Shown piece by piece: positions 1 through 50,031 of a stretch of 64,000 nt of DNA. The translations under genes and the position numbers were made by a program. Under the pieces are notes generated by a model. That model saw nothing but the letters and a program-made list of their open reading frames with translations. It was not told where the DNA came from and did no database searches. Each line of letters opens with the position of its first letter. The first letter of the stretch is position 1. The DNA comes from Paludisphaera borealis (lineage in GTDB: Bacteria > Planctomycetota > Planctomycetia > Isosphaerales > Isosphaeraceae), in contig NZ_CP019082.1 of assembly GCF_001956985.1 (NCBI RefSeq), positions 1,922,001-1,986,000 on the forward strand. The letters run 5' to 3'.

Positions 1-1896
1 CTGGATCAACTTGACCAGCTCGGCCTGGTCGGTCATGACCTGATTGAAATCGCCGTCCGTCGCCAGTACCACGCGGTTGAGGCCGTTGTTGATGAAGTTC
101 TGGGCGGCGACGTCATACGCGAGCTGGATGCCCGCACCGCCGTTGGTCGAGCCGCCGGCGCGGAGCTGTTCGATCCGCGACATGATCTCGGCCTTGTTGA
201 GGCACGAAGTCGAGGGAAGAACCAGACCGGCGGCCCCGGCGAAGACCACGATGGCGATCCGGTCGTTCTCGCCGAGCTGTTCGACGAGCCGTTGCAGACC
301 CCACTGAACCAGAGGCAGCTTGTTCGGCTGATCCATCGAACCGGAGACGTCGATCAGGAACACGAGGTTGGTCGGCTTGCGGGCCGACTGGTCGATCGGC
401 CTGCCCATGATCCCGATTCGGGCGAGCCGGTTCGAAGCGTTCCAGGGGCAGCGGGCGACCTCGACGTGGACCGCGAACGGGTCGGGGCTGTCGGCGGCCG
501 GCGGCGCGTCCTGATAGGGGAAGTAGTTGATCATCTCCTCGATCCGAACCGCGTCGGGCGGAGGAAGCTGGTTCGACTGGGTCAGGAAGCGGCGGACGAT
601 CGAATAGCTCGCCGTATCGACGTCGATCGAGAAGGTCGAAACGGCCTCCTGACCGACCAGCACGAACGGGTTCTCCGGGACGGCGTCGAACCTCGGATTC
701 GCGAACATCACGTTGCGGTCCTGCAGCTCCGCGAATTCGGCTACCGGCTGGCCTGCCGCCTCGCGGGCGGAATCGCCGGCAGAATCATGAAGGGCCGAGA
801 ACTTCGATTCGTTCTCAACACGAGCGGCGGCCGGCGCCATCGCCTGGTTGAGCGGTGCCAGACCGGGAAGCGACGACTGGGGCTCGGCGGCAGCCAGAGC
901 CGTGACGCTCTCCTTCATCGATTGCTTGGCATACTGGTGTTTCATGTCCAAGGCGACCGGGCCGACATTCCCGTTCTGTACAGACAGTTGAACGGATTGG
1001 CCTTGGCTCTCCTCGCCGATCTTGCCCCTCTGACCCTGGCCATCCCCCTTCTGGGCCAAGCCTTCTGCCTTTTCGGCCTGGCCTTGCTGTTGGCCCCGGC
1101 CCTGGCCGTTCGGATTTCCGTCACCTTGAGCTTTGGCTCCTCCAAAGCCAACCTGCTGGCCTGGCTCATCTTTCTGTCCTGGGGCCGGCGTGCTGGAAAG
1201 TGTGATGGCTTCCCTCTCGGGCGTGACAAAGGCGTAGTAGTCGCTGGGGCCTTGATCGGCGAGTTTCCGGCCGAGGGCTTGCCGCTGATCGATGGGCGGC
1301 TTAGCAGCATCGGCTTGTCTGCCGGCCATCATCCCGCCCATCGTTGCTCCGGGAGGCGCGACGGGCGTGGCGGACTTCGTTCCACCACGCATCGCCAGCA
1401 TGGGCTCGGCTGCAATCGGGCTCTTGTCAGAGTTGCTCTTGTGCTTCCGAAGGACGAAGCCCTCGGCCGAGTCGGCCTGGGCCCGCCGGGCTATAGCCAG
1501 TCCCTCAGCCCTTCTCGCCGCTTCGCGGGCGGATTGCGTGGCGGGCAGGAGGAGCGCGCCGCCGACCATTGCGAACAGGAAGAGTGCGGCGATCGAAGTG
1601 AGGAATTCACGCGACGGCCACTGAAAGAGGGCGGCCCGGGGCGGCGTGGCTGGAGTCTGCACGGAAGGAAGCGTCGCCGCGACCGCCTGGAGACCGTCGG
1701 TGTGAGCGGCGAGTTCGTGCATCTGCTCGTCGTGGAGTCGTTCCGACAGCAGGCTGGCGGTGAGGGCGATTTCGTCGATGGCTTTGCGCAGGTCCGGCCG
1801 GTCCGCGAGCAGGCGTTCGAAGTCTTGTTTCTCGGACTCTTCGAGTTCGCCTAAGGCGTAGGCGGTGAGCCGGGGGTCGTCGATGTCGAAGTTCAT
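1..1896 (-). CDS. vWA-domain membrane protein with anti-sigma-like N-terminus (3' end outside window)
   Basis: The frame is open from an ATG at 1896 to the window edge (632 codons), so the C-terminus is missing. Residues 1-40 ([17 protein letters not shown]) resemble the start of anti-sigma factors but lack zinc-binding Cys/His. A membrane segment lies near residues 105-125, followed by a long Gly/Gln-rich linker, the [11 protein letters not shown] block typical of the vWF_A N-terminal family, and then a vWA domain with the MIDAS motif DVSGSM near residue 515. The gene starts 25 bp after the ECF sigma gene, so the two form an operon. The likely role is envelope-anchored metal-dependent protein binding that may also restrain the sigma factor; that coupling is inferred from position. 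YfbK-like vWA proteins are the closest family. Confidence 0.85.
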
Positions 1897-1921
1897 TTCA
1901 GGTTCTCCTTGATCGAAGATT

Positions 1922-2461
1922 TCAGGCTCTGGCCTCGGCCGGCTGACCGTCGAAGAGACGGCCACGAAGCGTTTTGATCCCGGCGTGAATCAGGTAGCCG
2001 ACGTTGGACACGCTGTGGCCGCTGATCCGGCTGATCTCCTGGTAAGAGAACCCGTTCTGAAATTTGAGACGGATGACCTCGCGCTGGTTGGGGGGGAGGG
2101 TGTCGAGGAGCGCCAGCACGCGCGCCCCCAGGTCGTGACGTTCGGCGACGTCGTGCGGACCGGGGGCGGGGCTCAGGCAGCGGTTGACCTGTTCGTCTTG
2201 TAACCGAGTCATGCGATGCTCCTTCCGGAGGACGTCCAGAGCCCGGTTGCGGCAGACCGTGAACAACCACTCGGCGAGGTGGCCGTCGATCTCGGCGCGC
2301 GACTGCCCGCACAGACGCAGAAAGACGTCTTGCACCACGTCGCGAGCCGATTCGGCGTCGGTCAAAAGGCGGCGGGCGTAGAGCAAGAGCGGCCCCTCGA
2401 ATCGGGACACCGCCTCACGCACCCAGGCCTCGCTCTCGAGGTTCGTTGGACCTGCCATCAC
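1922..2461 (-). CDS. ECF-type RNA polymerase sigma factor
   Basis: A 179-residue protein with the sigma-70 region 2 pattern ([12 protein letters not shown], then [15 protein letters not shown]) and region 4 ([35 protein letters not shown]). The length is normal for an ECF sigma factor. Two ATG codons three bases apart could start it (2461 or 2458). It is the first gene of a two-gene operon with the vWA/anti-sigma-like protein, a common planctomycete arrangement. It would direct RNA polymerase to a small stress or envelope regulon; the target genes cannot be read from the window. Confidence 0.9.
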
Positions 2462-2617
2462 CGTCCTCGATAGGGGACGTGTTCCCGTACATGGAAACTA
2501 CGGGCCATGACGAACTTTCTTAGCCGGCGATCGAAAAAAGCCGCGGCCGACGATTCAGGTCAGTCGGGGCGGAGTCGCAAAGCGATGTGTCCCAGAAAGA
2601 TGTGTCTGCGCGCCCGC

Positions 2618-3007
2618 TCACGCCGGCTTGGTCTCGGCCGACTTGGGTTCGCCGAATCGGAGCCGGTTGCCGAACGGGTCGATGACCATCAGCTCGCGCG
2701 TGTTCCACGGCGTCTCCTCGACGCCCGGCCTCATGTACGGATAGCCCTTGGATGTGATCTCGGCGTGATAGGCGTCGAGCCCCTTCGCACGCACGTAGAC
2801 GGTCGATCCCGGGCAGCAGTCGCCGTGATGCTCGCTGAGGTGGAGCGTCAACCCGTCGCGGGTGATCTGCATGTACACCGGCATCGTCGGCTCGTAGCGA
2901 TGCTCCCACTCGACCTTGAATCCCAAGAAGCCAACATAGAACTCCTTGGCTTTTTCGATGTCGAAGATCCGCAGGATCGGCACGGCTTCAAAGTGGAAAT
3001 CAGACAT
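2618..3007 (-). CDS. VOC superfamily (glyoxalase/bleomycin-resistance-like) protein
   Basis: A 129-residue protein starting MSDFHFEAVPILRIFD. It shows the two-repeat beta-alpha-beta pattern of VOC proteins: KAKEFYVGFLGFKVEW in the first half, and a C-terminal block ending LMVIDPFGNRLRFGE, where the Glu is a usual metal ligand position. The frame stays open further upstream, but the ATG at 3007 sits exactly at the family start. A function as dioxygenase, lyase or antibiotic-binding protein cannot be chosen from sequence. It stands alone, downstream of and in the same direction as the DUF2961 gene with a 41-bp gap. Confidence 0.8.
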   Translation of the reverse strand: MSDFHFEAVPILRIFDIEKAKEFYVGFLGFKVEWEHRYEPTMPVYMQITRDGLTLHLSEHHGDCCPGSTVYVRAKGLDAYHAEITSKGYPYMRPGVEETPWNTRELMVIDPFGNRLRFGEPKSAETKPA

Positions 3008-30494: not shown

Positions 30495-32018
30495 CCGTTC
30501 ACGGGTCGGCGCTGTTGAATCAGCGCGAGCCGACTGAGGGCGGGGTCAGCGATGGGACGGCGAGGGCCGCGCGATGGGCCTGGAAGGCGGAGGTCAGATA
30601 GTCGAGCACGTTGCGGCCTTGTCGTCGGCAGGTGGCGACGACCGTCAGCATCCGCTCGACGAACCGACTCCCCGAAGCGCTGGCGGTCCCGCCGCTGATC
30701 CGTCGCCAGATCACGGCGTGACGCACCGCGCGTTCCGAGACGTTGTTGGTCGGCTCGACGCCCGGCCGCCGCGCGAAGTTCCACAGCCCGGCTTCCAGCC
30801 GCAACAGCTCCGAGCACGTACCGGCCGCCCGCTCGCTCGCGCACCGCGCGCCGGCCTCCAGCGTCGCGTGGACCAGCCGTTCCAGACCGCCGATCGCTTT
30901 TTGATATGTCGCTCCGCCGAGCAGTCCGTCGCGCGCCTTGCGATGGATCCGGAACAGCCGGTTCGACAACCCCAGCAGCCGGCCGCCGAACTTCGCGCCG
31001 ACCCCGCCGCGGTCGATCATCGCCTGGAAATCGCGGCGGAGATGGCTCCAGCACAGTTGCCGGTCCGCCGCGGCGATCCAGTTGTACGCGCTGAAGCGGT
31101 CGCTGCCGACGGTCCGGTCCGGCCTGTCGCCGAGCAGGCTTCGGGCGACCTCGCCGGAGCGGTTCGCGGCGATCGCGAAGACCGTGGCGGTCGGGGTCGT
31201 CGCCGCCCACAGCCAGGCCCGACGGCCTTGCTCGCGCCAGCCGGTCTCGTCGACGTTGACCACGGCCGCCTCGTGGACCGCCGCGGCCAGTTCGCGGTGG
31301 GGTTCGGCCAGGGCGAGGGCCGACCGCCGCTCCAACTTGGCGATCATGCCGGTGGAGATCGACAGCCCCAGCAAGTCGCCGGCCAACTGGCGGATCTGCC
31401 GCTTGCTCAGCCGATAGGCCCCGGCCAGGGTCGCCAGCACCGCCTGGAGCCGCGGGCCGAAACAACTCGCGGAGCCCCCCTCGGGGAGCGTGCCGCAAGT
31501 CGACGCGCCGCAGCCGGGGCAGGTCAGACGATGCAACCGATACTGATCCACCCACGGATCGAACCGGGGGATTTCGGCGACCTGATGGACCAACGGCGCC
31601 GGATCGACGCCGTCGAGCGGCCCCTTGCACCGCCGGCACGACGTCGGCTTGCAGTCGGTCGACGAGTCGAGCTGCTCCGGCGGAACCAGCGGCCGGACCG
31701 CCCTGCGATGCCCGGGCTGTCCGCCCCGCTTGCGTCGCGACGGCGGCGCCGGCGGCTTCCGCTTCACCCCGATCGGGTCCGACGACGGCGGCTTCGACGA
31801 GTTGGTCGAGTTCTGGTTCAGCCGCGCCTCGAGATCGGCGATCCGCCGCTCCAGAACGTCGATCCGCCGCTGTGTCGCCAGAAACACGGCGGCGACGGCC
31901 GCCTGCGCGTCAGGCGGCACTTTACTCCAAAGCTCCTCGGGGATCGGCGGCGCGTTCGTCATTACGACGGTATAGCGCCCTCAACGGCAAAGTTCAATAC
32001 CAGGCCGTGACCGCTTAC
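30491..32018. mobile_element. IS66-family insertion sequence (single-transposase type)
   Basis: 1,528 bp. The left end gtaaccgttcacgggtcgg and the right end (inverted) gtaagcggtcacggcctgg match at about 13 of 19 positions and start with GTAA, as IS66 ends do. It contains only the large transposase; the small tnpA/tnpB genes of classic IS66 are absent, as in the ISBst12-like subgroup. The 8-bp flanks (agaccgtt, cttcatgg) do not match, so no target duplication remains. Confidence 0.75.
30520..31962 (-). CDS. IS66-family transposase
   Basis: A 480-residue transposase. It begins with a coiled-coil (RRIDVLERRIADLEARL), then NSSKPPSSDP (leucine/Ser-Pro segment typical of IS66), a zinc-finger-like set CRRCKG and CPGCGASTCG, and the DDE catalytic domain: NVDETGW (Asp), SDRFSAYNW (Asp) and NNVSERAVR (Glu). 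The length is at the short end for TnpC of IS66. Both ends and all catalytic residues are intact, so it may be active. Confidence 0.9.
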   Translation of the reverse strand: MTNAPPIPEELWSKVPPDAQAAVAAVFLATQRRIDVLERRIADLEARLNQNSTNSSKPPSSDPIGVKRKPPAPPSRRKRGGQPGHRRAVRPLVPPEQLDSSTDCKPTSCRRCKGPLDGVDPAPLVHQVAEIPRFDPWVDQYRLHRLTCPGCGASTCGTLPEGGSASCFGPRLQAVLATLAGAYRLSKRQIRQLAGDLLGLSISTGMIAKLERRSALALAEPHRELAAAVHEAAVVNVDETGWREQGRRAWLWAATTPTATVFAIAANRSGEVARSLLGDRPDRTVGSDRFSAYNWIAAADRQLCWSHLRRDFQAMIDRGGVGAKFGGRLLGLSNRLFRIHRKARDGLLGGATYQKAIGGLERLVHATLEAGARCASERAAGTCSELLRLEAGLWNFARRPGVEPTNNVSERAVRHAVIWRRISGGTASASGSRFVERMLTVVATCRRQGRNVLDYLTSAFQAHRAALAVPSLTPPSVGSR

Positions 32019-34746: not shown

Positions 34747-35715
34747 GCTCTGTAGAAAACCCGTGAACCGTCGTCCACTGGCGGTCGTAGAATGACATGT
34801 GACTACGAGCAAATCACCACTGCGGGTGTTCCAGGTCGCCTACGAGGCGGCTTGTCGCGCCCTTCCGGCGCACCGCCACCAGTTCAGCCCCAAGAAGTTC
34901 ACCCAGCCTCAACTTCTGGCCTGCCTGGTGCTCAAGGAGTTCCTCCGCCTCGACTACCGCGGGTTGGCGGCGCATCTGGCGGACCAGGCCGACCTCCGGG
35001 ACCGGATCGGGCTGACGGTCGTCCCGCACTTCACCACGTTTCAGAAGGCCGCACAGCGGTTGCTGGCCTCGGTCCCCGGCCGCCGGATGTTCGACGCCGT
35101 GCTCGATCGTGCGAGGGAGGACGGCACGCTGAAGCGCCGCGTCCCGTTGGCGGCCGTCGACGGCACGGGGATGGAGTCGCGGCACGTCAGCCGCTACTAC
35201 GCCAAGCGTCGCTCCGCCGGAGACTCCGACCCCGCCAGGACTTACGCGCATTATCCGAAGGTCGTCTTCGTGGTCGACTGCAAGAGCCATATGATCCTCT
35301 CGGCGGTCCCGGGGCGTGGCCCGGCGTCGGATCTGGTGCAGTTCGGCCGGGCCTGGACCCAGGCCGTGCGCCGCGCCCGGATCGACACGCTGCTGGCCGA
35401 CGCCGACTTCGACGCCGAACGGGTCCACCGGGCCGTCCGGTCGCACGGCGTGCGGACGATCATCCCGCCGAAGCGGGGCCGGCCGACCGACAAGCCCCCC
35501 ACGGGCTGGTGGCGGCGGGTGATGAAACAGCGTTTCGCCGGGCTCAAACGCAAGTACGGTCAACGGTGGCAGGTGGAGACGGTGAACTCGATGCTCAAGC
35601 GGCGCTTGGGCTCGGCCCTCCGCGCGCGGAAGCATCCGACCCAGTGCCGCGAGATCGTCCTTCGGGCCATTACCCATAACGTCATGATTGTGCGACTACG
35701 GGTTTTCTACAGAGC
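34747..35715. mobile_element. 969-bp insertion sequence with perfect 18-bp inverted repeats
   Basis: Left end 34747-34764 reads gctctgtagaaaacccgt; right end 35698-35715 is its exact reverse complement. It contains one transposase frame that starts at 34799 and has no stop codon inside the element. No target duplication is visible (left flank ..cgaatt, right flank aacgac..). Confidence 0.85.
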
Positions 35716-36379
35716 AACGACGGACGGTTTTGCGACTCAACGCCGACTCCTGGATCTTGATGGCTTCCGGGCCCAGGCGTACGACCTGCTGACCACACCT
35801 GCCGCCCAAGAGGCGTTTCGGATCGACAAGGAGGACCCGAAGACGCGCGACCGGTACGGCCGTAACATCTACGGCCAGAGCGTCTTGCTGGCCCGCCGCC
35901 TGGTCGAGGCCGGGGTCCGGGTCGCCAGCATTTCGTGGGCGCCCGACGCCAACGCCACATGGGACACCCACGGCAACAACTTCACCGCTCTGAAAAACAG
36001 GCTGCTGCCGCAACTCGACTCCGCCCTCTCGTCTCTGCTGGACGACCTCCAGACGCGAGGCCGCCTCGATCGGACGCTCGTCGTCGTCATGGGCGAGTTC
36101 GGCCGCAGCCCCAGGGTCAACGCCGGCGCCGGCCGCGATCACTGGAACTTCGGATACAGTCTGTTCTTCGCCGGGGGAGGGATCAAGGCGGGCCATGTCC
36201 ACGGGGCCAGCGACAAGATCGGCGGCCGTCCTCAACTTGATCCCGTCACCCCGGCCGAGATCATCGCCACGATCTACCACTGTCTGGGAATCTCCGCCGA
36301 CACGATCCTCCACGATCAGTTCCAGCGGCCGATGACCGTCGTCCCAGACGGCCGCCCGATCAACGCCTTGCTCGCCTGA
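34799..36379 (+). CDS. Chimeric frame: IS4/IS5-type transposase fused to a truncated DUF1501 protein
   Basis: A 526-codon frame. Residues 1-300 are a DDE_Tnp_1 (IS4/IS5 superfamily) transposase: AAVDGTGM (Asp), LLADADFDAE (Asp) and WQVETVNSMLKRRL (Glu). At about residue 305 the frame crosses the right inverted repeat (VFYRA) and enters the C-terminal half of a DUF1501 protein (RDRYGRNIYGQSVLLARRLVEAG, WDTHGNN, MGEFGRSPRVN, GRDHW). Start codon GTG. The transposase normally needs a stop from its flank; here the flank supplies 220 extra residues. Whether the fusion is made or active is unknown. Confidence 0.8.
   Translation: MTTSKSPLRVFQVAYEAACRALPAHRHQFSPKKFTQPQLLACLVLKEFLRLDYRGLAAHLADQADLRDRIGLTVVPHFTTFQKAAQRLLASVPGRRMFDAVLDRAREDGTLKRRVPLAAVDGTGMESRHVSRYYAKRRSAGDSDPARTYAHYPKVVFVVDCKSHMILSAVPGRGPASDLVQFGRAWTQAVRRARIDTLLADADFDAERVHRAVRSHGVRTIIPPKRGRPTDKPPTGWWRRVMKQRFAGLKRKYGQRWQVETVNSMLKRRLGSALRARKHPTQCREIVLRAITHNVMIVRLRVFYRATTDGFATQRRLLDLDGFRAQAYDLLTTPAAQEAFRIDKEDPKTRDRYGRNIYGQSVLLARRLVEAGVRVASISWAPDANATWDTHGNNFTALKNRLLPQLDSALSSLLDDLQTRGRLDRTLVVVMGEFGRSPRVNAGAGRDHWNFGYSLFFAGGGIKAGHVHGASDKIGGRPQLDPVTPAEIIATIYHCLGISADTILHDQFQRPMTVVPDGRPINALLA
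35716..36379 (+). pseudogene. 5'-truncated DUF1501 gene fragment
   Basis: About 220 codons matching the last half of DUF1501 proteins such as that at 57331-58707 (shared RDRYG, LLARRL, WD-HG, EFGR-PRVN, GRDHW, GASD-IG). The first 230-240 residues, including the Tat signal, are missing, and the left flank of the IS is unrelated DNA, so the lost half was deleted and not just separated. No DUF1549/1553 partner is present here. Confidence 0.8.
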
Positions 36380-40736: not shown

Positions 40737-41161
40737 GGGTACTCTCGATCGATCGCCGTCGGCCGCGGATTCGAGAAACGTCGCCTTCACCCCGGGGGCC
40801 GCCGCTCCGTTTCGAACGCTCCAAACTCTTCGTTCTCGTCGAAAATTACGAAATAGGCGTCCGTCTTGTGGGCGTGGTGGGAGGCGGCTAGGATAACCTT
40901 ATCATACGGATGGGTCGTCCGCTTGACGGCGTCGCAGGCCGGCTTCAGAATAGTGCAGCCCGTGGTTTTCCTTGGTCTGCGATCGGAATTCGTCAACGAC
41001 GACGCGAGCCGGAACGGCCCCGATCGTCCGGTTCGCACGGGTTCAAACAGTCTCCTTTGCAAGGATCAAAAGATCCTCTGACGCGCCTTGGCGTCGGGCG
41101 ATCGCTGTTTGCAACGAACCTCGCGAACGAGGCGGGCTCCGTTTTTTGGGGAGGGGATCGC
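40737..41161. other. Divergent intergenic region upstream of the cytochrome oxidase cluster
   Basis: About 425 bp between the CPBP gene and the cytochrome c gene. Apart from the promoter candidate at 40923-40951, nothing was recognised. Confidence 0.4.
40923..40951 (+). promoter_or_regulatory. Candidate promoter of the cytochrome oxidase cluster
   Basis: TTGACG (40923-40928), 17 bp, then CAGAAT (40946-40951), about 210 bp upstream of the first gene. Confidence 0.3.
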
Positions 41162-42454
41162 GTGATCGTGCGGCGACGTCTGGTTCTGGAATTCGGGCTC
41201 TTGGTTGTGCTGCTGACGTCGGCCGGCTGCTCCGACAGCTTCCTCGCCGGTCCCATCGTCTACGAAGAACAAGAGACGATGACCAAGGAATTGCCGGGGA
41301 AATCCAATCTCGCGGGCAAGCCCGTGATTCAGGACAAGGTTCGTAAGGCCCTGGCCGAGTCGTTCGGCGAGTCTCCCCAGAAGATGCGCGTGCAACCCGG
41401 CGCGCCCCTCACGGGCGCCGACAGCGGCTATGTGGGCATGCGACTGGCGAACCGGATGCAGGGAGCGGACGGGAAAGTCGGGCCGGTCGCAGTCCGCCGC
41501 GCCGACGGGACGACCGCCACCCAGACCGGCGGCTACGGCCTCTATCGCCGCCATTGCCTCCACTGCCACGGCGTCAGCGGTGCTGGCGACGGGCCGACGG
41601 CCGCGTTCCTGTACCCGATCCCGCGCGACTACCGTCGGGGCCTGTTCAAGTTCACGTCGACGCCCAACGGTGCCCGGCCCGACCGCGACGACCTGCGGCG
41701 GACCGTCCGCCACGGCCTCCACGGCACGTCAATGCCCGCCTTCGAGGCGCTCATGACGGACGAGGAGATCGAGGAAGTCGTCGATTACGTGATCTTCCTG
41801 ACCAATCGCGGCGAGACCGAGCTGGCGCTCATTGAGGAAGGCTTCATCGCCGACGAGAAAGACCCCGACGCGATCTCCGAGGACGTGGTTAAAGACCTGA
41901 TCGAGGGGGTTTTCAAGAAGTGGACGACCGCGCCGGCGACGGTGGTGAATCCACCTATACCGCGGACCCCTTCGAGCCAGGCGAGCATCCTCCGGGGGCG
42001 GGAGCTGTTCCTCGGCAAGACCAAGGAAAAGCTCGAATGCGCCGGCTGCCACGGGCCCCAGGGCCGCGGCGACGGACCGAGCTTCGTGAGCCAGGACGTC
42101 TTCAACGCCGTGGTTTTCGGTGGCGACCCGAGCGAGCGGCAGAAGCGGGTCGACGCCCTCGACGCGAAGACGAAGGAACTCTGGGGCCAGAAGCTCGACG
42201 AATGGGGCAACCCGCTGCGTCCGGCCAACCTGAACCGCGGAGTGTACAAAGGGGGGAGACGGCCGCTCGACATTTACTGGCGGATCGCCAAGGGGATCAC
42301 CGGCGCCCAGATGCCGGCCCACTACCCGACCATCAACCATGAACAGATCTGGGACCTTGTCAATTTCGTGCTGGCGCTGCCGTATCAGCCCCACCTGCTT
42401 CGAGGCGGCGAGCCGTCGGACGCCGAGGCCGAGGCGGCGGTCGCCCATCGCTGA
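41162..42454 (+). CDS. Diheme cytochrome c lipoprotein
   Basis: A 430-residue protein with a lipobox (LLTSAGC) after a short hydrophobic leader, so it is attached to the outer face of the membrane. Two heme c sites are seen: CLHCH near residue 135 and CAGCH near residue 296, each followed by a c-type fold with a distal Met (STPMPAFEAL-like; QMPAHY). It probably passes electrons to the oxidase encoded just downstream. Start: GTG at 41162 with a strong ggggagggg site. Confidence 0.85.
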   Translation: MIVRRRLVLEFGLLVVLLTSAGCSDSFLAGPIVYEEQETMTKELPGKSNLAGKPVIQDKVRKALAESFGESPQKMRVQPGAPLTGADSGYVGMRLANRMQGADGKVGPVAVRRADGTTATQTGGYGLYRRHCLHCHGVSGAGDGPTAAFLYPIPRDYRRGLFKFTSTPNGARPDRDDLRRTVRHGLHGTSMPAFEALMTDEEIEEVVDYVIFLTNRGETELALIEEGFIADEKDPDAISEDVVKDLIEGVFKKWTTAPATVVNPPIPRTPSSQASILRGRELFLGKTKEKLECAGCHGPQGRGDGPSFVSQDVFNAVVFGGDPSERQKRVDALDAKTKELWGQKLDEWGNPLRPANLNRGVYKGGRRPLDIYWRIAKGITGAQMPAHYPTINHEQIWDLVNFVLALPYQPHLLRGGEPSDAEAEAAVAHR

Positions 42455-42616: not shown

Positions 42617-43441
42617 GTGCGATACTGGAGTATCCTGTTCGCCGTCGCCGCCGTCTTCAGCGTCGGGGCTTTCGTCTACGCTCCGTTCTCGGCCGACTGG
42701 TGGCTGCCCAACGTCGCCGGCGACCCCTACCATGTCGTCTCCACGTTCGGTAAGGAGATCGACAGCCTCTACTTCATCATCCTGGGGATCACCGGCGTCG
42801 CCTTCATCGGCACCCAGATCGTCCTGGTCTGGGTGCAGTACCGGTACGTCGACGAGATCGGCCCGGACGGCAAGCCGACGCGCCCCGCGCAGTATTTCCA
42901 CGGCAGCCAGCGGCTCGAGGTCGTCTGGACGATCATCCCCGCGGCGATCCTGGTGTTCCTCGCCCTCTACCAGATGGACACCTGGGCGAGCATCAAGCTC
43001 CGGTCGGCGACGCCCCGGGTGCCGGTGCTGGCCGAGATCACGGGGCGGCAGTTCCAGTGGGTCATCAAGTATCCGGGGCCTGACGGCAAATTGAACACGG
43101 CCGACGACCTGTTCACCGTCAGCGACCTGCATTTCGTGAAGAACCAGACGGCCCTGATCCAGCTCAAGTCGTCGGACGTACTCCACTCGTTCTTCCTTCC
43201 TCAGATGCGGATCAAGCAGGACGCCGTGCCGGGGATGACGATCCCCGTCTGGTTCGACGCCGACACGGCGGGCCACTACGAGCTAGTGTGCGCCGAGCTT
43301 TGCGGCTGGGGGCACTACAAGATGCGCGGCCACGTCACGGTCCACGAGACGGAAGAAGAATTTCAGAAATGGCAGGCCGACCAGTTGGCCGAACAGAACC
43401 GGAGCCAGCTTTCGATGGCCTCGGAATCCCAGGGGAGGTGA
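42617..43441 (+). CDS. coxB: Cytochrome c oxidase subunit II
   Basis: A 274-residue protein with two membrane segments in the first 85 residues and a CuA domain. The copper ligands are in CAELCGWGHYKM (Cys225, Glu227, Cys229, His233, Met236), with the earlier His in VLHSFFLP. No fused cytochrome c domain. Start: GTG at 42617 with ggggg upstream. It is followed 6 bp later by coxA. Confidence 0.95.
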   Translation: MRYWSILFAVAAVFSVGAFVYAPFSADWWLPNVAGDPYHVVSTFGKEIDSLYFIILGITGVAFIGTQIVLVWVQYRYVDEIGPDGKPTRPAQYFHGSQRLEVVWTIIPAAILVFLALYQMDTWASIKLRSATPRVPVLAEITGRQFQWVIKYPGPDGKLNTADDLFTVSDLHFVKNQTALIQLKSSDVLHSFFLPQMRIKQDAVPGMTIPVWFDADTAGHYELVCAELCGWGHYKMRGHVTVHETEEEFQKWQADQLAEQNRSQLSMASESQGR

Positions 43442-43447
43442 TCGGAA

Positions 43448-45307
<1,860 letters not shown>

Positions 45308-45412
45308 ACGAAACGGGCCTTGTCCTCCCGCTCGTTCGCGAGCCCGTTCCGGGCTTCCGAGCGAGCGGCGGCGGACCTTCCGGCCGCCGCGCCCAATCGT
45401 CCGCGACCCTCG

Positions 45413-46447
45413 ATGAAATCAATCCAGGACGGCGATCACCCGATCGCCGGGTTTTCCGAAAGCATGACACGGCTGACATCGAATCCGAAATCTGATCCCC
45501 CCTCGGCCTACCGCCCGGGTCCGCACTGGGCCGCGGTTTTCGCCGCGGTCTTCACGCTGCCGCTGCTATTTGTAGGCGGCTCAGTGACGACCTACCGCGT
45601 GGGGCTCGCGGTCCCCGACTGGCCGACGACGTTCGGCATTAACATGTTCCTGTACGACTTCTGGAACGCCCCGTTCGGCGTTCGGGTCGAACATACGCAC
45701 CGGCTCTACGGCGCTGCCGTGGGCCTGGCCACGGTCGGGCTCTGCGTCTGGTTCCTGATGTTCGAGTCCCGGCGATGGATGAAGGCGCTCGGAGTGGTCG
45801 CCCTGGTCGTCGTTATCGTCCAGGGGATTCTGGGCGGGACCCGTGTGACGCAGGTCTCGACGCTGCTGGCGGCCTTGCACGGCTGTCTCGGCCAGGCCTT
45901 CTTCGCGCTGACGACGGCCCTCGCCGTGACGACCGGGCGGGACTGGCTGAGCGACGCGCGACCGTCGGCCGACGTCGCCCGCCTGAGAACGCATTCGGCC
46001 CTCAACCTCGCCTTGATTTACGCTCAGGTGGTGCTCGGGGCGACGGTCCGGCACCTCGGCGGCCTATCGCCGGCGCTGGTCCACGGCGGCCTGGCCCTGG
46101 CGATCTGGGTCTCGACGGCCGTCTTCCTGCACCGCGCCCGGCGTGCCTCGGCGCCGCCTTCGGTCGTGCGCGCGGCCTGGGCTCAGGTGGCGATCGCGTC
46201 GCTCCAGATCGTCCTGGGAATCGCGTCGTTCATCACGCTCTTGCCGTTCGACGGCTACCCGCGGGCCGTCGGTTTTTATCAGGCGGTCGTCCGCACAGGG
46301 CATCAGACCAATGGGGCGGTGCTGTTGGCCGCGTCGTTGGTGCTGACCTTGCGCGCGTTCCGCCGGCTGGGGCCGTCGTCCCCGCCCGAATCCGCCTCGT
46401 CCCCTTCGTCTCCGTCCGCACAGGTCCCTTTGGAGGTGCTCGCTTGA
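45413..46447 (+). CDS. ctaA: Heme A synthase (CtaA/COX15)
   Basis: A 344-residue membrane protein with eight hydrophobic segments in two repeats. Heme-binding His appear in RVEHTHRLYG, ALHGCLGQ, LVHGGLAL and TGHQTNGA, the pattern of CtaA. It oxidises the methyl group of heme O to give heme A for subunit I. Two starts are possible: ATG 45413 or ATG 45464. Its stop overlaps the ctaB start. Confidence 0.9.
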   Translation: MKSIQDGDHPIAGFSESMTRLTSNPKSDPPSAYRPGPHWAAVFAAVFTLPLLFVGGSVTTYRVGLAVPDWPTTFGINMFLYDFWNAPFGVRVEHTHRLYGAAVGLATVGLCVWFLMFESRRWMKALGVVALVVVIVQGILGGTRVTQVSTLLAALHGCLGQAFFALTTALAVTTGRDWLSDARPSADVARLRTHSALNLALIYAQVVLGATVRHLGGLSPALVHGGLALAIWVSTAVFLHRARRASAPPSVVRAAWAQVAIASLQIVLGIASFITLLPFDGYPRAVGFYQAVVRTGHQTNGAVLLAASLVLTLRAFRRLGPSSPPESASSPSSPSAQVPLEVLA

Positions 46448-47379
46448 AATCCGCAGTTTCCGTAAGCCAGGACACCCTCGTTTCTCCGTCCGCCGACGCC
46501 GCTCTGGCGGCCGCGGTCGGGGGCCGAGCCTCGGCTTACCTGTCGCTCACGAAGCCTCGCATCGTGCTCATGGTTCTGATCACGGTCGGGGTCGGCTTCC
46601 TGCTGGGAGCCCGCGGCAGCGCTCATCCGATGACGTTCACCCTCACCCTCCTGGGCACCGGGCTCGTGGCCGGCGGCGCCAGCACTCTCAACCAGTATCT
46701 GGAACGATCGCGCGACGCCCTGATGAGGCGGACGGCCCGTCGAGCCTTGCCGAGCGGTCGGCTGGCCTCCCCCGAAGCCGCGATCTTCGGGGCGGCCTTG
46801 GGCCTGATTGGAACGCTCATCCTGCTGGTCGGCGTCAACGGGCTGGCGGCGGCGACGGCCTTGGTCACTCTCTTGCTTTATGTTTACGTCTACACGCCTC
46901 TGAAACCTTACACGACGTTGAACACGGCCATCGGCGCGGTGCCGGGCGCGCTGCCGCCGGTGATCGGTTGGACGGCCGCCACGGGAAGTCTGAGCATCGA
47001 AGCCTGGGTGCTGTTCCTGATCGTCTTCCTCTGGCAGTTCCCGCACTTTCTGGCGATCGCCTGGATCTACCGCGACGACTACGCGCGGGGTGGAATGAAG
47101 ATGCTTCCTGGGGTCGATCCGCGGGGGACGATGACCGGCCGCCAGTCGACGCTCTACGCATTGGCCCTGGTGCCGGCGGGTCTGCTGCCGTCGATCGTGG
47201 GGTTGGCCGGTCCGTTCTATTTCGTCGGAGCGATGATCCTCGGCCTGGCCTACCTGGAGTCGGCGGCCCGGTTCTGGTCGTGCGTGAACGACGCGACGGC
47301 CCGCCGTCTGCTTCGCGCCTCGATCGTGTATCTGCCGGCGGTCTTGCTGCTGCTCGTTCTGAATCCCATGCCGGCCTGA
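46444..47379 (+). CDS. ctaB: Protoheme IX farnesyltransferase (heme O synthase)
   Basis: A 311-residue UbiA-type prenyltransferase with about nine helices. The first prenyl-diphosphate motif is NQYLERSRDALMRRT, the second IAWIYRDDYARGGMKML. It adds a farnesyl group to heme b; CtaA then makes heme A. The TTG at 46444 has a perfect ggaggt six bases upstream and overlaps the ctaA stop, so TTG is the likely start. Confidence 0.9.
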   Translation: MKSAVSVSQDTLVSPSADAALAAAVGGRASAYLSLTKPRIVLMVLITVGVGFLLGARGSAHPMTFTLTLLGTGLVAGGASTLNQYLERSRDALMRRTARRALPSGRLASPEAAIFGAALGLIGTLILLVGVNGLAAATALVTLLLYVYVYTPLKPYTTLNTAIGAVPGALPPVIGWTAATGSLSIEAWVLFLIVFLWQFPHFLAIAWIYRDDYARGGMKMLPGVDPRGTMTGRQSTLYALALVPAGLLPSIVGLAGPFYFVGAMILGLAYLESAARFWSCVNDATARRLLRASIVYLPAVLLLLVLNPMPA

Positions 47380-47451: not shown

Positions 47452-48384
47452 ATGGCACACGCCGACGTCTCGACCACTTCCGAAGCCGGCCACGGCCGCT
47501 CGACCGGCCATCACGCTCCGGCTACGGCCGGCAAGGTGGCCGTGTGGCTGTTCCTGGCGACCGAGATCATGTTCTTCACGGGCCTGATCGGCTCGTACAT
47601 CGTCCTCCGCGCGGGAAGCTCGTCGCGGGGGTACAGCAACCTCTACCCGCCGACGACCAACATCGCCGAACTCGAGAAGACCCACGGCGTGGTCATCAAG
47701 GCGGTCGGCGGCGCGCCGGAACAGGTCGCCCACGCGATCGAGGGGGCGACCGGGATGACCCCCGTCGAGGTCGAGAAGGTCCTTGAAGCGGTCCCTCACG
47801 CGGTCGTCGCCCGGCTGAGCGCCGCCAAGGCCCATGCGCTGCTCGAACAGCTTGAGTCCCAAGGGGCGAAGGCCGAGACCGAAGAGCTGGTGACGCACAA
47901 CTGGCCCAAGCCCTACGACCCGATGACCAACCCGCTGAGCATCGACCTGACGGCCGCCAACACGTTCGTCCTGATCTGTTCGTCGGTGACGATGGTGCTG
48001 GCCCTCGCGGCGATCCAGCAGGGCAAGAAGGGGAAATGCTCCGCATACCTCCTGGCCACGGTGGTGATCGGATCAGTGTTCGTCGGCGTGCAGGTCTTCG
48101 AGTATTATCAGCTCATGGTCGGCCACCACTACCCGCCCGGGATCAGCGCGACCGGGCATTTCCGGCCCGACGTCAGCCTGTTCGCCTCGTGCTTCTTCGC
48201 CATGACCGGGTTCCACGGCCTGCACGTCTCGATCGGCGTCCTCGCGCTGTTCCTGGTGTTCCTCCAGTCGCTCACAGGCAAGTACAATCCGGCGAACTAC
48301 GCGACGATCGAGCACGTCGGCCTCTACTGGCACTTCGTCGACCTCGTCTGGATCATCCTGTTCACGATCGTTTATCTCGTCTGA
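47452..48384 (+). CDS. coxC: Cytochrome c oxidase subunit III with an embedded L7/L12-like domain
   Basis: A 310-residue protein. The COX3 helices are split: residues 27-55 (AVWLFLATEIMFFTGLIGSYI) and then 160-310 (with FHGLHVSIGVLAL and EHVGLYWHFVDLVWI). Between them lies a soluble insert of about 90 residues; residues 92-142 align without gaps to the C-terminal domain of ribosomal protein L7/L12 at about 19 of 51 positions (EGATGM, KVLEAVP, LEQLESQGAK). Subunit III does not carry metal centres and stabilises the oxidase. Confidence 0.92.
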   Translation: MAHADVSTTSEAGHGRSTGHHAPATAGKVAVWLFLATEIMFFTGLIGSYIVLRAGSSSRGYSNLYPPTTNIAELEKTHGVVIKAVGGAPEQVAHAIEGATGMTPVEVEKVLEAVPHAVVARLSAAKAHALLEQLESQGAKAETEELVTHNWPKPYDPMTNPLSIDLTAANTFVLICSSVTMVLALAAIQQGKKGKCSAYLLATVVIGSVFVGVQVFEYYQLMVGHHYPPGISATGHFRPDVSLFASCFFAMTGFHGLHVSIGVLALFLVFLQSLTGKYNPANYATIEHVGLYWHFVDLVWIILFTIVYLV

Positions 48385-48416: not shown

Positions 48417-48839
48417 ATGAGCGACCAAGCCGCCGCGATCTCCCCGAGCGAAGCCGCCGAGCTCGAAGTCGAGTCGCATACTCCGTACCTCAAGGTCTGG
48501 TTCGGGCTGCTCGTGTTCACCCTCGTCGAGTATTTCTACGCCCGAATTTTCATGGATCATTTCACGTTCCTGATCCTCGGCCTCTTGTTCCTGGCGATCG
48601 TCAAGGCCTGCATGGTCGGTTGGTACTTCATGCACCTGAAGTTCGAGAAGCCCTGGGTCTATCTCATGATCGTCCCCGCCCTGGTCTTCGCGGCGATCTT
48701 GACCCTCGCGCTGTGCCCCGACATGGTTCTGAAGTACGATGAGGCTGAGGACGAGGCGAACGAACCGCAAACGACCACGGCCCACTTGATCGGCGAGCGG
48801 CCCTCGTTCGCCGTCGCGACCGTCGTCAACCCTCACTAA
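48417..48839 (+). CDS. coxD: Cytochrome c oxidase subunit IV-type small membrane protein
   Basis: A 140-residue protein with three hydrophobic segments (VWFGLLVFTLVEYFYARIF, FLILGLLFLAIVKACMVGWYFM, WVYLMIVPALVFAAILTLAL), as in prokaryotic subunit IV (caa3/COX4_pro). The GWYFMHLKFEKP block is the family signature. It is a peripheral helper of the oxidase. Short charged N- and C-terminal tails. Confidence 0.85.
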   Translation: MSDQAAAISPSEAAELEVESHTPYLKVWFGLLVFTLVEYFYARIFMDHFTFLILGLLFLAIVKACMVGWYFMHLKFEKPWVYLMIVPALVFAAILTLALCPDMVLKYDEAEDEANEPQTTTAHLIGERPSFAVATVVNPH

Positions 48840-48894: not shown

Positions 48895-50031
48895 GTGGAA
48901 TCGGCCTATCGGCGCGGATCGCTCATCGTCTTGTTCACGGTTCTGGCCTCGGGCCTGCTCTGCCTGGCGACGGCCCGGGGGCCGCGCGGCGGGGCTTCAG
49001 CGGCTCAGGATCTCGGCGATGGAGCCTACGACCTCGGCGCATTCCACCTGACCGAGCGGTCGGGCGACGCGGTCACCGACGCGACCCTCGCCGACCGAGT
49101 CTGGATCGGTTCGTTCATCTTCACGCGCTGCCAGCTCTCATGTCCTCGGATCACGAGCATCATGAGGAGCCTTCAGGAGCGGCTCGCGGGCGACGACGTC
49201 CTGCTCGTCAGCCTCTCGGTCGATCCCGACCACGACACCCCGGCCATCCTGGCCGACTACGCCAAGCGGTTCGGCGCGATCGCCGGGCGGTGGTTGTTTT
49301 TGACCGGCGACCACGACGCCATCTACGAGATGATCGCCAAGCGGTTCCATCTCACGGCGCTGGCCAACCCGGCCCCCGACCCCGACGGCAAGGACGAGGC
49401 GATCGTCCACAGCGACCGCCTGGCCCTGGTCGACCGCGGCCGGATCGTCGGCCTGTTCGATTCCCAGGATTCGAAGGCCCTCGACGAACTGATCTCCCAG
49501 GCCAAACGCCGCGCCTTGCCGCGTTGGGTTCGCGCGCTCCCCGCCGTCAACGCCAGCCTCAACGGCCTCTGCACGATCCTCTTGCTCACCGGCTGGGTGC
49601 TCATCCGCCGTCCCGGGTCGGATCGATCGACCCGCGTCGCCCCCGCCGTCTTCTCGGCGTCCGACGCGCTTCATCACCCGGCCACGCGCGGCCACGTGAT
49701 CGCGATGGCCCTGGCCGTCACGGCCGCCGCCCTGTTCCTGGGATCGTACCTCTTCTACCACTTTCACGCCGGTAGCGTGGCCTTTCGGGGACAGGGTTCG
49801 ACCCGCTGGCTCTACTTCACGATCCTGCTCTCGCACACAGTGCTCGCCACCCTCGGCGTCGCGCCGCTCGTGCTCATCACGCTCTACCGCGCCCTGCGCG
49901 GCGACTTCGCACGCCACGCCCGGCTCGGCCAGCTCACCTTCCCCATCTGGCTCTACGTCTCGATCACGGGCGTCGTCATCTACTTGATGCTCTATCAGAT
50001 GCCTGTCTCGACCTCGACCTCGAGCTACTGA
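48895..50031 (+). CDS. SCO copper chaperone fused to a DUF420 (CtaM-like) domain
   Basis: A 378-residue protein. After a signal anchor (residues 8-27), residues 45-215 are an SCO domain with the copper/disulfide site CQLSC (Cys79, Cys83) and the third ligand His172 in IVHSD. Residues 230-378 hold four hydrophobic helices of the DUF420 family (FLGSYLFYHFHAGS, ILLSHTVLATLGVAPLVLITL, ITGVVIYLMLY), related to CtaM/YozB that matures aa3-type oxidases. The start is GTG at 48895. It is the last gene of the cluster. Two assembly factors on one chain would deliver copper and finish the oxidase together. Confidence 0.87.
   Translation: MESAYRRGSLIVLFTVLASGLLCLATARGPRGGASAAQDLGDGAYDLGAFHLTERSGDAVTDATLADRVWIGSFIFTRCQLSCPRITSIMRSLQERLAGDDVLLVSLSVDPDHDTPAILADYAKRFGAIAGRWLFLTGDHDAIYEMIAKRFHLTALANPAPDPDGKDEAIVHSDRLALVDRGRIVGLFDSQDSKALDELISQAKRRALPRWVRALPAVNASLNGLCTILLLTGWVLIRRPGSDRSTRVAPAVFSASDALHHPATRGHVIAMALAVTAAALFLGSYLFYHFHAGSVAFRGQGSTRWLYFTILLSHTVLATLGVAPLVLITLYRALRGDFARHARLGQLTFPIWLYVSITGVVIYLMLYQMPVSTSTSSY

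Follow-up and report, generated by a model that had tools for sequence, protein, structure and literature searches.

A domain homologous to the C-terminal domain of ribosomal protein L7/L12 within cytochrome c oxidase subunit III of Isosphaeraceae

Subunit III of the cytochrome c oxidase of Paludisphaera borealis (CoxC, a protein of 310 residues of the five-helix type, encoded at 47452-48384 on the forward strand of the 64,000-nucleotide stretch analyzed here, which we refer to as the window) contains a true homolog of the C-terminal domain (CTD) of ribosomal protein L7/L12. The domain covers residues 77-146 (47680-47889, forward strand), on the evidence of Pfam, profile comparisons, a PDB search, an AF2 model and structure matches, and it is predicted to form the complete L7/L12 CTD fold, set between the first two CoxC helices. 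It is optional in the oxidase, because orthologous enzymes within Isosphaeraceae do without it. We think it probable that the domain is an exapted module of subunit III, which would lie in the periplasm and either stabilize the oxidase or contact a putative partner.

Apart from the insert, CoxC is a conventional subunit III. The Pfam COX3 match (3.8e-21) spans residues 151-309, the helical bundle of the model matches bovine and plant COX3 with a Z score of 22.5, and the alignment with the bovine protein (1v54_C, rmsd 2.2, 185 residues aligned) runs over bovine residues 72-259. The first transmembrane helix (residues 26-55; 47527-47616, forward strand), located from the AF2 model and the alignment range, corresponds to helix III of the seven-helix COX3, and helices 2 to 5, at residues 164-189, 193-223, 243-274 and 284-309, follow the domain (residues 164-309 overall; 47941-48378, forward strand). 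Because the model aligns to bovine residues 72-259, the insert lies in the COX3 helix III-IV loop. CoxC thus resembles other five-helix COX3 proteins (PF00510; CtaE/CyoC-like) in its five modeled helices, its COX3 profile match and its standard operon, and differs in that its first loop is 100 residues long, compared with 33-38 in short-loop orthologs, the approximately 66 extra residues being folded as a domain. It is best called a domain insertion in an otherwise known enzyme subunit. The original prediction had placed an L7/L12-like domain at 47725-47877, which does correspond to residues 92-142 of CoxC, and had counted 19 identities in 51 positions, where our count by eye against Escherichia coli L12 is 18 in about 50; the domain is indeed there, but that span is too small, as it starts at residue 77 and continues to about residue 146.

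The AF2 model was built from CoxC and 28 relatives, one of which carries the insert (two insert-bearing rows with the query). It contains the β-α-α-β-α-β fold that the original prediction had set as a test, with strands at residues 77-84, 117-122 and 140-146 and helices at 89-100, 104-112 and 124-136. Ten-residue mean confidence is 83-95 for residues 81-140 and falls toward either end of the domain, to 64 over residues 71-80 and 71 over residues 141-150, and the insert modeled alone has the same order of elements with a pLDDT of 69. L7/L12 CTDs rank first in searches with Foldseek and VIA-align, including 8yeq (Z 9.4), 3j9y_7 (Z 9.2, rmsd 1.8, 68 aligned) and 1ctf (Z 8.5, rmsd 2.0, 67 aligned). 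The ClpS adaptor comes close, its highest Z score being 8.4 where the best L7/L12 reaches 9.4, but it shares only 8-20% identity with the insert, and no ClpS family is listed among the Pfam matches of either CoxC (at E up to 1) or the inserts; the predicted structure by itself does not distinguish the two families, and it is the sequence that points to L7/L12.

In a Pfam scan of whole CoxC, Ribosomal_L12 is the second-best family (residues 80-142, E 1.6e-4, 22.3 bits), below the 25.9-bit cut-off of the L7/L12 CTD family (PF00542). The 98-residue insert alone scores 25.7 bits (E 1.5e-5), and an 81-residue version passes the cut-off (26.5 bits, E 8.4e-6), such that the excised domain belongs to PF00542 by profile and by predicted fold while the whole protein stays under the threshold. 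Among the 30 insert-bearing genomes, PF00542 matches CoxC in 19 at E up to 0.1, seven of these scoring above the curated cut-off and the best, in G013, at 46.5 bits; when 14 of the 29 inserts were scanned with Pfam at E up to 0.01, 12 matched PF00542 (best 2.3e-12) and no other families were listed. A single-sequence search of 177635 distinct PDB sequences returned L7/L12 as the top six matches (4.9e-5 to 2.2e-4, 1ctf among them at 4.9e-5), the seventh being an unrelated enzyme at 0.09. A profile made from the 29 inserts, with no L12 included, matches all 57 planctomycete L12-CTD proteins collected at 32.5-47.4 bits, far above the best of 2850 shuffles (15.3 bits); 30 of these proteins were fetched by PF00542, and the other 27, which include a DUF4340-L12 fusion (L140), are not independent of the window insert because they were fetched through its matches. 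With hhalign, the inserts align to Isosphaeraceae RplL CTDs over 65 columns (probability 98.3, E 1.3e-14, 26% identity), and identity between insert and L7/L12 CTDs is 26-34% in all. In the reverse direction, with the database size set to 1000, a ribosomal CTD profile at E up to 10 found the CoxC of 27 of the 30 genomes with the insert (19 of the 30 at E up to 0.01) and of none of the 14 with a short loop.

These results leave a chance or convergent origin, in which an Ala/Glu-rich helical loop would merely resemble L12, with almost no probability. The Pfam score of the window copy does straddle the cut-off, from 22.3 to 26.5 bits, and the ClpS fold is also similar, but the stronger ortholog, the shuffled controls, the uniform top of the PDB sequence search and the complete order of fold elements in the model all stand against it, and we reject it. 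An assembly or gene-call artifact is likewise rejected, as each of 30 genomes has the insert in frame (the gene being partial in G019 and G017). Neither of the two refuting conditions set in the original prediction, a model lacking the L7/L12 fold or profile matches at background level only, applies, and the homology and fold claimed there therefore hold; what does not is a tether acting through ribosomal function, to which we return below. CoxC resembles bL12 in the predicted fold, the element order and the core residues kept, and differs in having neither the N-terminal dimerization/bL10-binding domain nor the hinge, in that the domain sits inside a membrane protein whose remainder is COX3, and in that the basic GTPase-binding face is mostly gone. 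CoxC thus does not have the attributes of a functional bL12, and the P. borealis genome has its own RplL elsewhere (contig 1, 3.49 Mb), which scores 104 bits with PF00542 and is followed by CoxC at 25.9 bits.

The insert appears restricted to Isosphaeraceae, where 30 of the 45 genomes of the order (all of this family) carry it, across several genera; 14 have a clean short loop, and one yielded no ortholog. G003, in which only a distant CoxC paralog was found, was counted as neither and G019, with a partial CoxC, as insert-bearing; both were left out of the insert alignment, and the Paludisphaera soli locus L035 was left out of the counts because it is the same as G030. The full-length insert-profile matches listed for 148 genomes of the class (20 matches) and for 392 genomes of the phylum (two matches) all fall in Isosphaeraceae, with no CoxC insert among the matches listed outside the family, and among the best 80 of at least 582 GTDB CoxC loci only that of P. 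soli has the domain. Among the matches listed outside the family, most genomes have a single insert-profile match, usually a short frame as expected for RplL, and a few have extra ones (e.g., G442, G446, G351, G049, G088 and G139). The planctomycete survey that the original prediction called for thus finds the insert, among the matches listed, in one family. When the window insert itself was searched against the 392 Planctomycetota genomes, the first matches were its own gene and the CoxC of G022, followed by others lying mostly in short frames.

The domain may have been acquired once or twice. A FastTree phylogeny of concatenated operon proteins with one outgroup (five taxa with less than 60% coverage and outgroup G497 being left out) places insert-less lineages at the base and is compatible with a single gain plus a single loss as well as with two gains; support is 0.36-0.94 at many nodes, a midpoint-rooted tree of the ingroup alone has another root, and an unfinished IQ-TREE tree with two outgroups, which carries no support values, has a different root with three Fitch changes. 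Two independent acquisitions, rather than one gain followed by loss, are a tentative alternative that we consider the less likely. Insert-less clades separate the insert-bearing genomes into two groups, and inserts of the two groups share 28.4% identity, no higher than either group shares with RplL (27.6 and 28.5%); however, the insertion site is identical in both groups, and separate descents from a conserved RplL should have left the groups less alike than each is to RplL.

The insert-bearing CoxC is part of an ordinary oxidase operon on the forward strand, with the order cytochrome c - CoxB - CoxA - CtaA - CtaB - CoxC - CoxD - Sco/DUF420. The first gene (40910-42454, start uncertain) encodes a cytochrome c protein with two cytochrome c-type domains (Cytochrome_CBB3 3.6e-20, Cytochrom_C 2.4e-18), followed by coxB for subunit II with the CuA domain (42617-43441; Pfam COX2 and COX2_TM), coxA for subunit I (43448-45307; COX1 7.1e-152), the heme A synthase gene ctaA/COX15 (45320-46447; COX15-CtaA 4.2e-17) and the heme O synthase gene ctaB (46573-47379, the UbiA domain to the stop, the true start lying upstream; UbiA 3.9e-55). 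Downstream of coxC are coxD for subunit IV (48417-48839, start read from the sequence; COX4_pro 7.6e-13 on 48441-48836) and a SCO1/SenC-DUF420 fusion in one frame, a copper assembly factor (48895-50031; SCO1-SenC 6.4e-22, DUF420 1.8e-31). Gene order is alike in 16 loci, nine insert-bearing and seven insert-less (the exceptions being L196 without CoxD and Sco matches and L200 without a Sco match), and we therefore reject the insert as a marker of a different operon. Upstream of the operon, by eye, are frames at 34799-36379 and 30520-31962 that we take to be transposase-like, and the former seems to be in frame with, and to extend into, the last part of what is presumably a DUF1501-like gene, as would be the case after insertion of an element.

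The helix III-IV loop of bovine COX3 is on the P side of the membrane. From the alignment to bovine residues 72-259 and this topology, and in part from loop charges, we infer that the insert loop is periplasmic. In 42 CoxC proteins the loops between helices 2 and 3 (mean of 3.3 Lys/Arg versus 0.9 Asp/Glu) and between helices 4 and 5 (1.6 versus 0.4) are positive, and acidic residues outnumber basic ones in the insert loop (7.1 versus 11.1); the charges fit this placement in part, as the N-terminal tail, which is expected inside, is not positive (1.2 versus 1.8) and disagrees. If the loop is on the periplasmic side, the domain would therefore have left translation.

Most of the ribosomal binding surface of the domain has been lost. 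The GTPase-binding site of L12 is described as highly conserved, positively charged, and located in helices 4 and 5 (PMC6753160). We aligned 29 inserts, trimmed by the strand-1 pattern, with 30 Isosphaeraceae RplL proteins and E. coli L12. Positions are given in what we take to be the E. coli L12 numbering, and the list of face residues is likewise our assumption. The core is retained, with Leu110 and Gly114 each present in 28 of the 29 inserts, Ala115 and Gly62 in 26, Leu106 in 25, and Val68 and Ala103 in 24. By contrast with the RplL proteins, where Lys65, Lys70, Lys81 and Leu80 are found in 29 or 30 of 30, none of the inserts has any of these four residues; Ile69 and Lys84 are retained in three inserts each and Arg73 in 11. 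At the nine face positions, inserts have a mean identity of 6.5% to the RplL majority residue, compared with 34% elsewhere, and net charge over positions 65, 70, 73, 81 and 84 is +5 in 30 of 31 L12 proteins but averages -1.2 in the inserts (negative in 20, zero in five, positive in four). As judged from this alignment, neutral or acidic residues have replaced most of the basic GTPase-binding face. An insert-specific feature is a 'PHG' turn whose His, at residue 116 of CoxC (47797-47799, forward strand; placed by aligning the inserts with RplL), is present in 20 of 29 inserts, the position being Lys in all 30 Isosphaeraceae RplL proteins.

A role in coupling synthesis or insertion of the oxidase to translation, through binding of translation GTPases or ribosomes by the domain, is thus very improbable. 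Homology to the L7/L12 CTD and the 11 inserts that keep Arg73 are what speak for such a tether, but the loop is periplasmic by COX3 homology, and Lys65, Lys70, Lys81 and Leu80 are gone from every insert and Lys84 from all but three; ribosome tethering is unlikely because of these two lines together. The original prediction had offered a tether as one of two possible roles, and through ribosomal function this is disfavored; its other suggestion, a borrowed small stable fold for assembly, may be close to the accessory module that we prefer.

The accessory-module reading starts from an L7/L12 CTD placed in the COX3 helix III-IV loop of an aa3-type oxidase within Isosphaeraceae, where, facing the periplasm, it would be removed from translation. 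Most of its basic GTPase-binding face has been lost, and selection keeps its core and glycines. On this reading the domain could serve subunit III as a rigid cap or a contact surface, stabilizing either the oxidase or the attachment of a partner that faces the periplasm; candidates are subunit II with its CuA domain, the operon's di-domain cytochrome c, and some other respiratory complex. The main rival is a passive, tolerated insertion, in which a self-folding soluble domain sits in a permissive loop with no partner and is retained only since its misfolding would harm subunit III, and we regard this as a possible but distinctly less likely account. In dN/dS comparisons (Nei-Gojobori) of ten close pairs (G028 and G030 being in two pairs each, and the part outside the insert amounting to just 52 codons in one pair), ratios for the insert are 0.15-0.57, and the rest of CoxC 0.05-0.19. 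In all ten pairs the insert is therefore under purifying selection, but it changes more quickly than the membrane part, its omega being 1.8-6.7 times as high and its mean pairwise identity 33% versus 73%. Selection keeps the hydrophobic core and the fold glycines, and the surface drifts, a fast surface divergence that suits passive insertion as well as a docking site. That 14 of 45 genomes are without the insert in an unchanged operon is as expected of a passenger, and so is the variability of this loop, which ranges from 16 to 113 residues among 81 CoxC proteins (80 loci and the window) and, in other phyla, holds long inserts unrelated to this one. On the other side of the balance are the retention of the insert by deeply diverged lineages (30 of 45 genomes, from several genera), the omega below 1 in every pair (some genomes being in two pairs), and the insert-specific His kept in 20 of 29. 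A more specific scenario is that the CTD, whose role on the ribosome is to recruit soluble partners, evolved anew in the periplasm into an arm with which the oxidase captures either an electron donor, the operon di-domain cytochrome c, or a partner respiratory complex, an acidic face replacing the basic one; this is in our view unlikely.

Other long loops occur at the same COX3 site: an acidic, His-rich loop of 81 residues in a Verrucomicrobia locus (L095), and loops of 71 residues in two Bacteroidetes loci (L055 and L058), all unrelated to the insert.

A partner at the insert site, as the accessory-module reading allows, is plausible because subunit III is the contact subunit in known supercomplexes. 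In the ACIII-aa3 supercomplex of Flavobacterium johnsoniae, the five-helix subunit III is described as the contact subunit to the partner complex, and its equivalent in Mycobacterium smegmatis likewise (PMC8361435). The F. johnsoniae system is thus similar in making its partner contact through a five-helix subunit III, and differs in that the sections of PMC8361435 drawn on here mention no L12-like domain. Alternative complex III looks unlikely as the operon partner: in the P. borealis genome (G000) the NrfD-family, alternative complex III-like gene is located on contig 2 in the neighborhood of a second CoxC, a paralog that has no insert (68782-69756 and 76492-77118), and cytochrome b genes are on contig 1. 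We also scanned the eight operon proteins, in which just three columns outside the insert (CoxB 86, CoxB 263 and Sco 334) separate insert-bearing from insert-less genomes. The alignment around CoxB 86 is gapped and shifted, CoxB 263 has an exception, and the scan gives no clear signal of a co-evolving partner. CoxB 263, in the C-terminal tail, is Ser in 20 of 23 insert-bearing and Asp in 10 of 10 insert-less genomes, and insert-bearing G021 has Asp; it is a weak lead to co-variation with the insert.

We found no description of an L12 CTD within COX3 in the titles and starts of abstracts of the open-licence literature. A domain of the translation machinery has apparently been reused in the core of a respiratory enzyme, across the membrane, and the coexistence of insert-bearing and insert-less orthologs in one family and the same operon provides a natural experiment on the gain of a soluble domain by a membrane enzyme, which also bears on whether surface loops of subunit III set its partners. 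PF00542 matches are not always ribosomal, and caution is warranted in annotation.

Several further L12-like sequences were seen in the course of these searches. An L12 CTD is encoded at 27 of the 28 non-CoxC loci examined that the window insert matched; the exception is a STAS-domain protein (L133 in G067, 1108-2124, reverse strand). An L12-like stretch precedes its STAS domain; the CoxC insert matches this protein at 1.9e-4, and Pfam detects only STAS in it. A DUF4340 protein (L140 in G160, 1492-2892, reverse strand; PF00542 67.5 bits, DUF4340 55.7 bits) has a C-terminal L7/L12 CTD and, on domain matches, appears to be a second non-ribosomal case in Planctomycetota, perhaps also extracytoplasmic, as guessed from a hydrophobic N-terminal stretch. 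Outside Isosphaeraceae, G139 has a second strong insert-profile match (C1:3323753-3323947, 49.7 bits) in a frame of 532 residues, which could be another non-ribosomal L12 CTD. Finally, paired short PF00542 matches occur in other Isosphaeraceae frames (G040:C1:4311802-4312047, G041:C9:34350-34592, G031:C1:5921635-5921874 and similar); they cover profile positions of about 8-37, the region of the GTPase-binding helices, and perhaps represent a separate family of L12-like repeats.
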